Source: Roseibacillus persicicus
GTDB lineage: Bacteria > Verrucomicrobiota > Verrucomicrobiia > Verrucomicrobiales > Akkermansiaceae
Reading direction: 5' to 3'
Length of the DNA: 64,000 nucleotides
NCBI RefSeq assembly: GCF_014651675.1
Contig: NZ_BMXI01000004.1
Coordinates: 124,001 to 188,000 of the forward strand
A program made the position numbers and the translations under genes. How positions within the stretch are numbered: the stretch's first letter is position 1; each line of letters starts with the position of its first letter. This document shows positions 49,687 through 64,000 of the stretch, in pieces. Under the pieces are notes generated by a model. The model had not been told where the DNA came from. It did no database searches and saw nothing but the letters and a program-made list of their open reading frames with translations.

Positions 49687-49752
49687 GTAAAATGGACAAA
49701 TGAGGGAATGAAATCGCTCCTGAAACATCGTAGGAATAAGCCAAGTTACACG

Positions 49753-51948
49753 ATGAAAGTCTTTTTCCTCCTCCTCACCACGCTCTTTTCCATCGCAAGC
49801 CCTGTCTTTGCGCAGGACGATTTTGATCCCTTGAACCTGCCAAGCGCGACGGACAAGCCGAAGAAGCAAACCACGGAAGCCAAGCTTCTCTCCGAAGTAT
49901 CCGCTGTCGCTCCCGGCCAACCATTCACCGTCGACCTGAAGCTGACCCATCCCGATGGCTGGCACAGCTACTACGTCAACACCGGTCTGATTGGCGAAGT
50001 CCTGAAAACCAAGTGGACCCTCCCCGATGGTTTCACCGCCACCTATCTGGGCTGGCCCACGCCGCACCTGAGTAACTCCTTCGGCTACCAATCCATCGGC
50101 TACGAAGGCACCGTTCACCACCTTTACCAAATCACGCCTCCCAAGGACCTCGCTCCCGGCACCACCATCGAAATCACCGCAGAAGCCAATTGGCAAATTT
50201 GCGATGACACCGGGTGCGTCCCCGAGGACACCACTCAAACTCTGACTCTCTCTGCTGCAGCCGAAGTGCAACTGGATGCTTCGGTCAGTGACAGCTTCGC
50301 GGAGGCCAGAGCGCATTACCCCAATAGTAGCAAAGACCTTTCCATCGAGGCGACCGAGACGAATAGTGTCATCACCCTGACGGTCACTCCCGCAGGTTCC
50401 CTGGATCCGGAGAAAGTCCACTTCTTCGATGAAGACGGCCAAGTCTCCGTTCAAGAACCTCATGAAGCGAGCAAAGAGGGCGACGCTCTCATTCTGAAGC
50501 TTCCCCGCAATCAAGGCAACGACTTCGCCGATGCCGGTCCAGTTCTCGAGGAACTGACCGGGATTCTCACTGATGGCAACACCAGCTATTTGGTGAAAAC
50601 CAATTTTCAAGAGCCAGAGATTGTCAAAGCACCAGTCTCCATCTCGAGCCTACTCCCCATCCTCGGCGGGATGTTTCTCGGAGGCCTCATCCTCAACCTC
50701 ATGCCCTGTGTCTTTCCCGTGATCGGAATTAAGATCATGGGCTTCGTCGACCAAGCTGGTCACGATCGAAAGAAAATCATGCTGCATGGCATCGCCTTCG
50801 CTGCAGGAGTGTTCGCTAGCTTCTGGCTTTTGACCCTTATCATGTTGTTAGGAGGGATCAAGAACTGGGGAGGACAACTGGAGAACCCTTACGTAATGTT
50901 CACCCTCATCATCGTGATGCTGCTTCTGGCGATGAACATGTATGGAGTCTTCGAAATCGGCGTGGGGGCCACCGGCGTGGGCTCCAACCTGACCCGCAAG
51001 GAAGGGTTGGGAGGCTCGTTCTTCTCCGGTGTTCTGGCCACCGTCGTCGCGACGCCTTGTTCCGCTCCTTTCCTTGGTGCCGCCCTCGGTGCTGCCGTGG
51101 CGCTGCCCACCTTCTGGTTCATTGTCGCCTTTACCGCGATGGCGGCCGGTCTCTCGCTCCCCTACCTGACCCTTTCGGCTTTCCCTGACTTGGTGAAAGC
51201 GCTTCCCCGTCCTGGAGCGTGGATGGAGTCCTTCAAGCAAGGAATGTCCTTCCTCCTCTTTGCTACTGTCGGCTACTTGTTGTGGGTCTACTCTGCCCAG
51301 GTCTTCGAACAAGACTATGGACAAAAAGGCCTCTTCGTCATGATTGGACTTTCATTGGTAGCAGCTGCGGGCTGGGTCTGGGGTCGTTGGACCACGCCGA
51401 TTCGCAAGCCCAAGGTGAAGTGGATCGGCCGCGGGATCACCGCTCTTCTTTTCATCATTGGGATCATCCTCGCCAAGCCTGGTGCCGAGTCAGACGCATC
51501 GGAAGCGGTCGTCATTGAGTGGCAAAAATGGAGTAAGGAAAAGGAACAGGAACTGTTGGCCAAGGGAACGCCAGTCTACGTCGATTTTACCGCCAAATGG
51601 TGCCTGACTTGTCAGGTGAACAAGAAGAACGCCTACACCCAGGAGGTCGTCGACCTAATGCAACGTCAGGGTGTTGTCTTCATGAAAGCGGACAAGACCA
51701 CCACCAACGAGGAAATCGATGCCGAGCTCACTCGTCTCGAACGCTCGGCGATTCCGGTCAATGTTCTCTACACTCCCGGCGACAAGACGCCCCACATCAC
51801 TCCCGAAGTTTTAACTCCCAGCTTCATGAAGAAATTCGTTAACGAAAAGCTTGGGGAGTTGCCCTCGCAGGCATTCACCCCCGAGTCCTTCGAAGAAGCA
51901 CAAGCGAGTCAGGAGCCAGTGCTCGTGAACTTCCGAGCTGACTGGTGA
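49753..51948 (+). CDS. dsbD: Thiol:disulfide interchange protein DsbD, ending at an in-frame TGA
   Basis: 731 residues from ATG 49753, chosen because a signal peptide follows directly (MKVFFLLLTTLFS, cleavage near FAQ); an in-frame ATG at 49708 would add 15 residues. The N-terminal periplasmic domain has the cysteine pair CDDTGC. Eight membrane helices follow, with Cys in LMPCVFPVIG and TPCSAPFLGAALGAA, which carry electrons from cytosolic thioredoxin. The C-terminal thioredoxin domain has WCLTC (C617, C620). A second thioredoxin-like domain then starts (EPVLVNFRADW) and the frame ends at codon 732, TGA, exactly where its active-site Cys would be. The frame continues as a typical thioredoxin fold to 52218 (see next entry). 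Confidence 0.92.
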   Translation: MKVFFLLLTTLFSIASPVFAQDDFDPLNLPSATDKPKKQTTEAKLLSEVSAVAPGQPFTVDLKLTHPDGWHSYYVNTGLIGEVLKTKWTLPDGFTATYLGWPTPHLSNSFGYQSIGYEGTVHHLYQITPPKDLAPGTTIEITAEANWQICDDTGCVPEDTTQTLTLSAAAEVQLDASVSDSFAEARAHYPNSSKDLSIEATETNSVITLTVTPAGSLDPEKVHFFDEDGQVSVQEPHEASKEGDALILKLPRNQGNDFADAGPVLEELTGILTDGNTSYLVKTNFQEPEIVKAPVSISSLLPILGGMFLGGLILNLMPCVFPVIGIKIMGFVDQAGHDRKKIMLHGIAFAAGVFASFWLLTLIMLLGGIKNWGGQLENPYVMFTLIIVMLLLAMNMYGVFEIGVGATGVGSNLTRKEGLGGSFFSGVLATVVATPCSAPFLGAALGAAVALPTFWFIVAFTAMAAGLSLPYLTLSAFPDLVKALPRPGAWMESFKQGMSFLLFATVGYLLWVYSAQVFEQDYGQKGLFVMIGLSLVAAAGWVWGRWTTPIRKPKVKWIGRGITALLFIIGIILAKPGAESDASEAVVIEWQKWSKEKEQELLAKGTPVYVDFTAKWCLTCQVNKKNAYTQEVVDLMQRQGVVFMKADKTTTNEEIDAELTRLERSAIPVNVLYTPGDKTPHITPEVLTPSFMKKFVNEKLGELPSQAFTPESFEEAQASQEPVLVNFRADW

Positions 51949-52218
51949 CTTTCTGCCAGCTACTACGAGTGGGGTCTCTTCTCGAATCAGGAAGTGGTGC
52001 GAACTCTCCAGAAGAAACGAGTGCGTGTGCTGAACGCCGACCTCACTCCGGGCTTGCGTCACCCCTCGGTTGAGCCAATTCGGGAAGAGATGGTCCGCTT
52101 GCAACGTTCTACCGTCCCCGTGCTCGCCCTCTATCGTCCTGACGACCGTCAGAACCCCCTCGTCTTCCCCGAAATCTGCACTCCTGAAACCCTTCTCAAG
52201 GCGCTCGAAGATCTCTGA
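51949..52218 (+). other. Continuation of dsbD beyond the TGA: second thioredoxin-like domain
   Basis: Read in the same frame after the TGA, 89 codons remain to a TGA at 52216-52218. They give LSASYYEWG, then a thioredoxin half with RVRVLNADLTPGL, a cis-Pro strand (STVPVLALYRPDD) and a final helix. It aligns by eye with the first thioredoxin domain of DsbD (SAIPVNVLYTPGD and so on), so it is a tandem duplicate. The active site would read W-[TGA]-L-S-A rather than W-C-L-T-C, so the resolving Cys is also absent. It is either expressed by recoding (selenocysteine) or is a relic of a truncated gene. Confidence 0.7.
51966..51984 (+). promoter_or_regulatory. Possible bacterial SECIS-like hairpin
   Basis: CGAG (51966-51969) and CTCG (51981-51984) pair around an 11-base loop TGGGGTCTCTT, starting 17 bases after the TGA. 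The loop contains GGTCT, also present in the loop of the E. coli fdhF SECIS, and its second base is G. The stem has only four pairs and adjacent bases do not extend it well, so chance is a serious alternative. Confidence 0.25.
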
Positions 52219-52271: not shown

Positions 52272-53492
52272 GGAGCAGGGACATTCCTGTCCCTGAGACG
52301 GTCCGGCGCATCGAATCGTTTCTCCGAGTCACTCGATACCGCAGCACTGCCTGACGCAGGTTTTGACACTCCGAGGCTCTGCTCATGGACAGGAATGTCC
52401 ATGCTCCGGTAAGGGGTCCTTTGATAAAAAGAGACCGCGAGTGGTCTTGAGTGCTCGTAGGGGTCTCCCGCGGATGAGGGGCGAGAGCCTGAGGGCCTTC
52501 CCCGAACATTCGCGGCTGTTTTGGCAAAACAGCCCTACCGGCGGAGCAGGGACACTCCTGTCCCTGGGACGGTCCGGCGCATCGAATCGTTTCTCCGAGT
52601 CACTCGTTAATGCCGCATCGCATGACGCAGGCTTTGACACTCCGGGGCTCTGCTCATGGACAGGAATGTCCATGCTCCTGAAGGGTTCCTTTGATAAAGA
52701 GACCGCGAGTGGTCTTGAGTGCTCGTAGGGTTCTCTCCCGGATGAGGGGCGAGAGCCTGAGGATCTTCCCCGAACATTCGCGGCTGTTTTGGCAAAACAG
52801 CCCTACCGGCGGAGCAGGGACATTTCTGTCCCTGGGACGGTCCGGCGCACCGAATCGTTTCTCCGAGTCACCCGTTAATGCCGCACTGCCTGACGCAGGC
52901 TCTGACACCCCGCGGCTCAGCTCATGGACAGGAATGTCCATGCTCCGGTAAGGGTTCCTTTGATAAAGAACCCGCGAGCAGTCTGGAGTGCTCGCGGGGT
53001 TCTTCCGCGGATGAGGGGCGAGAGCCTGGGGAATCTACCCCGAACATTCGCGGCTGTTTTGGCAAAACAGCCCTACCGGCGGAGCAGGGACATTTCTGTC
53101 CCTGGGACGGTCCGGCGCACCGAATCGTTTCTCCGAGTCACCCGTTAATGCCGCACTGCCTGACGCAGGCTCTGACACCCCGGGGCTCAGCTCATGGACA
53201 GGAATGTCCATGCTCCGGTAAGGGGCCCTTTGATAAAAAGAGACCGCGAGTGGTCTGAAATGCTCGTAGGGGTCTCCCGCGGATGAGGGGCGAGAGCCTG
53301 AGGGCCTTCCCCGAACATTCGCGGCTGTTTTGGCAAAACAGCCCTACCGGCGGAGCAGGGACACTCCTGTCCCTGGGACGGTCCGGCGCATCGAATCGTT
53401 TCTCCGAGTCACTCGATACCGCAGCACTGCCTGACGCAAGCTCTGACGCTCCGGGGCTCTGCTCATGGACAGGAATGTCCATGCTCCGTTAA
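52272..53492. repeat. Tandem array of 4.5 copies of a ~270 bp palindrome-rich unit
   Basis: Units start at 52272, 52543, 52811, 53081 and 53352 (lengths 271, 268, 270, 271 and a partial ~141). Each has three palindromic parts: a hairpin GGGACA/TGTCCC near the start; an inverted counterpart TGGACAGGAATGTCCA followed by TGCTCC, so the first ~133 bp is bounded by mirror-image ends; and a long perfect hairpin (52514-52534 in unit 1: GGCTGTTTT, GGC, AAAACAGCC). Copies differ by scattered substitutions, with at least two subtypes. The long open frames on both strands (up to 96 codons) repeat with the units and look spurious. It lies between dsbD and tRNA-Ile. Confidence 0.92.
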
Positions 53493-53604: not shown

Positions 53605-53680
<76 letters not shown>

Positions 53681-62489: not shown

Positions 62490-64000
62490 CTATTCAATTA
62501 CCGAGAAACCCGATTCGGCTTCCAATCCGATCACCACTGCGAAGTTGGGATTTGTATCACTTGCCCGTATTCCGGTCAGCCGAACTCGACTCCCTTTGGA
62601 CTGATTGAGCTTCTCCGCAAAAGGCCGATTGGACAAAGCCCCACCTACAGGAAAACGCCCGACGATGGCGTATCCATCTTGAAAAAGAAGGTAGACGAAA
62701 TCCCCGTTTTTTCTGAAATCCGCAAAGGCTCCTTCGAAGATCACTTCTTCTCCCTCACTGACTCCCTTCAGCTCCTCGAGGTCGGCAAACTGATAGACCT
62801 TTTCCTCAGGCTCTTCGGGCTGAAAACGAATGTCGTCGATTGAACTTACTCTCAGCCAAACTCCACTTCCCCTGGCCATCTTTCCGCTGTCGACCTGAAC
62901 CGTTGCCGACACAAAGACCTCTTTCCCAACGAACTCGTCCCAATCTGCGCGCTGAACGGGCGTTTCGCTTTCGGTGTGCCTGAAAACGACAAAGGGTTGA
63001 TCGCGCCGGTCACCAAAGTCCAAATACCACAGGGTCCCTTTTCCTCCACTTTGGTTACTTTCCACGACTTTGCCGCGAAAGGAAATGGCCTGCCCGTCCA
63101 GTTGCTTGAGCTGAGCCAAGTCCTTGGGGGTGAAATAGGGGCGGTCCGGGTCGGCGACCTCCTCGTCATCGCCAAAGAGATCAATCTCCCCCTCGAGCGC
63201 TTTCTCCTCCATGACAATTGGGCGATTGCGCGGTGCGGCGGCCCCTGGTGATTCTGCCTCAGTCTCTGGTTCGGGAACCGTCTCCTCCACTTGGGCGAGC
63301 TCGACCGGAGCTTCACTTTCCCCGTCTGAGGGTATCTCAGCCAATTCTATCGAATCTTGCACGTCTTCGTCGGCGCTCGCGGCCAAGGCACTCGCGGCTG
63401 GCTCTCCCGTCGCCTGTTCCCGAACCAGCTCTTCAGACTGAGGTTCCTCTCTGGTTTGCGGAGCCTCTCCTTCAACCGAGAGCTTCTTCTCTTTCGAAAA
63501 GCTGAAAAGAAACCAGCATCCCACCCCAAGCAGCACGAAAAGGGCGGCGAGACTTCCCCACAGCAAGCCCCCGTCACTCCCTGCCTGCGCGCTTTTCAGT
63601 GGCGTGATCGGAGCCGTTTGAATCTCTGGCGAGCGCATCGCCGGCTCTGCAACGGATGCCGCAGCAGGAAATCGTTCAACCAACAGACGCAGCGCTTCTT
63701 CCTGATCCACCCTTGGAACAGTCATTCCCCCCATGGCGCCAAAGTAACGCAAAGGCGAAAGAAGTAGCATGGTGTGTAGACCGCCGGAATCATCCCGCGC
63801 GATTAGAATCTCCTCCTCCCGCAACTGAATCGCAGACCGCGCTTCCTCGGGCAAGGCCTGCAACACCGAGCGCACCTGCGCTTCGAATATTTGCCCATCT
63901 CCCGGCGAGAAAACGTTTTGCTCGTGGGCCTCGTCCAGCGACTTTCCTTCAATCCATTCCGTTACAAAAAAAGGAGTGCCATCCAGCTCGTCGAACCCAC
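62490..64000 (-). CDS. Membrane protein with degenerate kinase-like N-terminal part and OB-fold-like C-terminal part; 5' end outside the window
   Basis: The frame is open to the window edge, giving 502 visible codons. The first visible residues (FDELDGTPFFVTEWIEGKSL) look like the hinge of a Ser/Thr protein kinase. The next ~60 residues align with the catalytic loop region, but show LREEEILIARDDSG where HRDLKPENI is expected and LSPLRYFG where DFG is expected, so catalytic residues are missing. A membrane helix (about residues 155-175 of the visible part) and an acidic linker follow, then two small beta-barrel-like segments (QAISFRGKVVES and EEVIFEGAFADF), probably OB-like. A GTG near 63875 could start a shorter protein. 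Function unknown; probably a signalling or scaffolding protein. Confidence 0.6.
   Translation of the reverse strand, partial: GFDELDGTPFFVTEWIEGKSLDEAHEQNVFSPGDGQIFEAQVRSVLQALPEEARSAIQLREEEILIARDDSGGLHTMLLLSPLRYFGAMGGMTVPRVDQEEALRLLVERFPAAASVAEPAMRSPEIQTAPITPLKSAQAGSDGGLLWGSLAALFVLLGVGCWFLFSFSKEKKLSVEGEAPQTREEPQSEELVREQATGEPAASALAASADEDVQDSIELAEIPSDGESEAPVELAQVEETVPEPETEAESPGAAAPRNRPIVMEEKALEGEIDLFGDDEEVADPDRPYFTPKDLAQLKQLDGQAISFRGKVVESNQSGGKGTLWYLDFGDRRDQPFVVFRHTESETPVQRADWDEFVGKEVFVSATVQVDSGKMARGSGVWLRVSSIDDIRFQPEEPEEKVYQFADLEELKGVSEGEEVIFEGAFADFRKNGDFVYLLFQDGYAIVGRFPVGGALSNRPFAEKLNQSKGSRVRLTGIRASDTNPNFAVVIGLEAESGFSVIE

Follow-up and report, generated by a model that had tools for sequence, protein, structure and literature searches.

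We propose that dsbD of Roseibacillus persicicus is a selenoprotein gene, and we hold this with high confidence as the best explanation of an in-frame TGA at positions 51946-51948 of the window (the whole stretch of DNA analysed, 64,000 nucleotides of contig NZ_BMXI01000004.1). Judged from the sequence, the codon very probably specifies selenocysteine (Sec), a reading far likelier than a nonsense mutation. By computation, the codon lies within a continuous reading frame, at the position of the catalytic residue of a second thioredoxin domain, in a genome that carries the Sec machinery, and a SECIS-like hairpin stands behind it. A sequence-only reading of this DNA had left the choice between Sec insertion and a recent nonsense mutation; the Sec alternative is now well supported by the machinery, by two other genes with TGA at Sec-type positions and by the hairpin, which is of the bSECIS type.

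Reading frame and domain layout of dsbD

Read through its internal UGA, dsbD occupies 49708-52218 of the forward strand and encodes an N-domain, a membrane domain and two thioredoxin domains, here called TrxA and TrxB (Pfam DsbD_N, DsbD_TM and Thioredoxin_7); the read-through frame ends at a further TGA (52216-52218). The product would have 836 residues if translation begins at ATG 49708 and 821 if it begins at ATG 49753, with the internal TGA as codon 747 or codon 732, respectively. The second ATG, which opens a signal-peptide-like MKVFFLLLTTLFS, is the more likely start, and it is the one that fits the codon number and protein length given in the sequence-only reading, whose in-frame TGA is real. 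All the parts of a DsbD lie upstream of this codon: the N-domain with its Cys pair, the membrane domain with two Cys, and TrxA (51505-51858, forward strand), a C-terminal CxxC thioredoxin domain with the motif WCLTC (TGC 51601-51603, TGT 51610-51612) that is common to three genus mates.

TrxB (51859-52215, forward strand), supported by alignment, AlphaFold2 and codon usage, can be aligned to DsbD thioredoxin domains, with homology on both sides of the UGA and the UGA itself at the Cys position of the homologs. Its active site reads R-A-D-W-(TGA)-L-S-A where TrxA has T-A-K-W-C-L-T-C, so that the proposed Sec codon takes the catalytic position, and Ala (GCC 51955-51957) stands at the place of the resolving Cys. 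The cis-Pro strand is preserved, as STVP in TrxB versus SAIP in TrxA. Behind the TGA the frame runs on for 89 codons (51949-52215) with no other stop and no frame damage. The table-11 list of open reading frames, in which UGA is taken only as a stop, ends dsbD at the internal UGA and thus cuts the protein and loses TrxB. Directly behind dsbD there is an array of a 271-bp tandem unit (4.5 copies, 91% match, window positions 52272-53492), with a tRNA-Met (53605-53680) just downstream of it.

The codons behind the TGA are used as in a gene, scoring 0.25 bits per codon in frame; the two other forward frames each give -0.28, and 149 length-matched gene pieces have a mean of 0.29 (SD 0.09). AlphaFold2, run on TrxB with Sec entered as Cys and with 18 homologs, returned a model with a pLDDT of 92.9, whose best PDB matches are the DsbD-gamma structures 2FWH and 1UC7. 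The alignment with the first domain, the replacement of the resolving Cys by Ala, the cis-Pro strand and the well-preserved thioredoxin half over 89 open codons, all of them pointed out from the letters alone, are thus borne out. When the window was scanned for frames that a TGA splits and whose codon usage is gene-like before and after it, eight places were found, and the dsbD TGA is the only one at which thioredoxin homology runs across the codon, the other seven having been assessed by eye only.

Selenium machinery and further candidate selenoproteins

The sequence-only reading had proposed a search of the genome for selA, selB, selC and selD, and this search came out in favor of Sec. SelA (459 bits), SelB (324 bits) and SelD (374 bits) are all encoded, and a tRNA-Sec lies on contig C16 (Rfam 59.6 bits, with ARAGORN in agreement); selA is also found in the three genus mates. 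ARAGORN calls a second tRNA-SeC inside the window (63774-63861, reverse strand), which we take as a false positive because it lacks Rfam support and a good tRNA-Sec exists on C16.

TGA occurs at Sec-type positions in two further genes of this genome. One is selD, which has a single in-frame TGA in the motif CAGU; the other encodes a TlpA-like protein with the motif WUGPC and adjoins the tRNA-Sec gene (locus L013, minus strand, with the TGA some 885 bases from the start of the reverse complement). By its sequence, the TlpA-like gene probably encodes a further selenoprotein. Both genes have hairpins with the same type of loop as that in dsbD.

A bSECIS-type hairpin behind the UGA

The strongest evidence for Sec insertion is the hairpin CGAGUGG(GGUCU)CUUCUCG at 51966-51984 of the forward strand (loop 51973-51977), which was identified by a covariance model and by pairing in register. 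Published bSECIS elements carry a G within the first two positions of the loop and lie 16-37 nt from the UGA (PMC13188914); the dsbD hairpin agrees with this rule, with a spacing of 24 nt between UGA and loop. Our own rule for the loop type that dsbD shares with selD and the TlpA-like gene was drawn up post hoc, with the sequences already seen, and 1.4% of the window's TGAs conform to it. In register, six of the seven pairs form in dsbD, and at most five form in any of 124 homologous domains without a TGA. Relatives of R. persicicus possess DsbD proteins with Sec in their thioredoxin domain (Sec-DsbDs), and their TGA is followed by a seven-pair hairpin whose 5-nt loop is mostly xGUxx; two of the pairs show changes on both sides. 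The nearest sequence to the dsbD hairpin is that of one of these Sec-DsbDs (L188), with 16 of 19 bases identical, compared with 11 or fewer in domains without a TGA.

To build a covariance model, R1, we used 22 Sec-DsbD genes from other genomes and left the window out. In an unfiltered scan of the window the dsbD hairpin ranks first, with 20.5 bits and an E-value of 1.6e-4, in a match that covers the hairpin side only; over the 5.28-Mb genome it is the sole match with an E-value of 1 or less (E 0.013), all R1 E-values being rough. Cys-type DsbD genes score no higher than 15.1 bits, and on the window's own TrxA the model aligns to coding sequence surrounding the Cys, skipping the hairpin. Weaker matches turned up in two genus mates, G002 and G003 (E 0.04-0.14); no thioredoxin frame with a UGA was seen at these places, and we take the matches as chance. 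Relative to shuffled sequences, the region of the hairpin folds with no unusual stability (z 0.22).

Distribution and origin of the second thioredoxin domain

It had been proposed that Cys at the TGA codon in close relatives would support Sec. They do not have it: the DsbD of all three genus mates (G001, G002 and G003) ends after TrxA and has no second domain at all, so that the proposed alignment with relatives does not work as a test. In G001, DsbD looks identical to its counterpart in Roseibacillus ishigakijimensis (L021). No ortholog of TrxB was found in 260 genomes of the family or 384 of the class, the best other score being 57 bits against 252 for TrxB itself. More distant relatives often carry a different DsbD, the Sec-DsbD introduced above, with the TGA in its sole thioredoxin domain (DYTADWUxxC). 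This family, with its conserved bSECIS-type hairpin, is represented in Akkermansiaceae and other Verrucomicrobiota by L131, L144, L188, L195 and some 20 further loci. A smaller group of Sec-DsbDs (L139, L140 and L141) branches apart and has a different hairpin; it is perhaps a second origin of Sec. No separate Sec-DsbD that could have served as a donor was found within the genus.

The ancestry of TrxB appears mixed. At the protein level it is 36% identical to TrxA and 25-30% identical to the Sec types, and hence nearer to the Cys type. In the free tree a very long branch joins it to the Sec domains, and an AU test, constrained to unite TrxB with the 100-row side of the Cys-type group, does not reject its grouping with the Cys type (p 0.58). 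When TrxB is scored by segment, the residues from -3 to +16 relative to Sec are Sec-like (+29 bits) and the two flanks lean weakly toward the Cys type (-14 and -30 bits). This pattern would be produced either by a recombination mosaic or by a Cys-type copy that gained a SECIS element under RNA constraint; the Sec-like Asp before the Trp and the Sec-like Asn-Gln that follows the stem-loop are not part of the hairpin itself, which favors recombination. A possible, if rather doubtful, history is that the active-site stretch and the SECIS were recombined from a Sec-DsbD into an otherwise Cys-type copy, giving a selenium-switched long form of DsbD with a lone selenol (UxxA).

Alternative explanations

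The main rival to Sec insertion is that TrxB arose by duplication of a Cys-type domain, that its catalytic Cys codon recently mutated to TGA and that its remnant has yet to decay, the cell making a DsbD with TrxA only. The domain was indeed found in one species only and is highly diverged, its resolving Cys is missing, and apart from the active-site stretch it resembles the Cys type. However, 42 single-base routes lead from TrxB codons to a stop and only one of them reaches the catalytic position, so a chance stop would have had to fall exactly there, and a hairpin of Sec-DsbD type would have had to lie behind it, again by chance, with the Sec machinery present in the same genome; nor has any other stop or frame damage accrued over the remaining 89 codons. 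We therefore regard a nonsense mutation as very unlikely. An error of sequencing or assembly, with TGC, TGT or TGG as the true codon, is more improbable still. The species is represented by a single genome, which leaves room for such an error, but the SECIS-type hairpin, absent from homologous domains without a TGA, would not arise in this way.

A different kind of alternative accepts the Sec codon and supposes that the function of TrxB is fading, Sec being inserted into a UxxA site that is catalytically dead or on its way out. The long branch and the lost resolving Cys would fit this, and there is precedent for such decay: separate DsbD-gamma-like genes behind the Sec-DsbD genes of three relatives (L131:2647-2982, L133:2611-2946 and L085:3764-4099) have lost both active-site Cys, with motifs such as WDMTG and WGLIS. 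At a fourth locus (L137) a broken DsbD-gamma-like stretch (WDVSD) follows the Sec-DsbD. In R. persicicus, however, codon usage and predicted fold are intact and the hairpin has been kept, and sites with one selenol (UxxT, UxxS and UxxG) are known in other selenoproteins (PMC13188914). A fading domain thus seems unlikely, though a good deal less so than a nonsense mutation. Several points speak against Sec: TrxB was found in one genome only, no conservation of the UGA was seen in any ortholog, the long branch and the Ala at the resolving position also fit decay, the fold of the hairpin region is of ordinary stability, and the loop-type rule is post hoc.

Proposed mechanism

We infer Sec insertion, the two protein forms and the function of TrxB as follows. 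SelB and Sec-tRNA would bind the hairpin directly behind the UGA, and the UGA would be decoded as selenocysteine, yielding an extended DsbD with a periplasmic N-domain, a membrane electron carrier, the CxxC domain TrxA and the lone-selenol UxxA domain TrxB. Where Sec is not inserted, termination would leave a DsbD that ends about 30 residues past TrxA and retains all the usual parts; since this product would be a complete ordinary DsbD, both forms may be made. The membrane domain would pass electrons to TrxA, and oxidised TrxB would receive them from either TrxA or the N-domain. We suggest that TrxB, supplied in this way, may use its single selenol as a reductase or peroxidase-like site on periplasmic peroxides, sulfenic acids or mixed disulfides; with no resolving Cys at the usual place, its selenenyl sulfide would be resolved by a thiol of another domain.

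If this proposal is true, dsbD is a young selenoprotein gene, with the Sec domain as an optional addition to a complete enzyme, an example of a Sec site and its SECIS arising or moving within a gene family, and a case in which the decoding of UGA picks between two forms of one membrane reductase.

Comparison with known systems

Sec in the thioredoxin domain of a DsbD is not new in itself, given that the UxxC Sec-DsbD family is already widespread in distant relatives. Our literature search found no paper on Sec-DsbD in Verrucomicrobia, and a "thiol:disulfide interchange protein" with UxxC stands on published lists of selenoproteins (PMC1794560, PMC13188914). What is new here is that a putative Sec domain is fused behind a Cys-type DsbD that is itself intact, that its UxxA site has no resolving Cys, and that its make-up is apparently mosaic. 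The R. persicicus gene is like the Sec-DsbDs of its Verrucomicrobiota relatives in the position of the TGA, in the hairpin, and in its loop type and register. It differs from them in that they have one thioredoxin domain, with UxxC, and here the proposed Sec lies in a second domain behind an intact CxxC, in the motif W-U-L-S-A, with flanks that resemble the Cys type.

The listed thiol:disulfide interchange protein family (PF13098) is likewise a thioredoxin-like selenoprotein, with one Sec in UxxC rather than UxxA, as compared by listing and not by the sequence of a reference protein; UxxA does not occur in the selenoprotein review (PMC13188914). The best NCBIfam match is TsoB, a rhodanese/DsbD fusion-like selenoprotein (NF045694), through its DsbD-like core. 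We rejected membership in that family, the score being 174.8 bits against a curated cut-off of 805; TsoB also has two Sec residues in UxxxxU (PMC13188914), unlike the dsbD product. With classical DsbD (PRK00293; DsbD-gamma 2FWH), the protein shares the N-domain, the membrane domain and the CxxC C-terminal domain, and it differs by the extra, putative Sec domain that follows behind this usual C-terminal domain.
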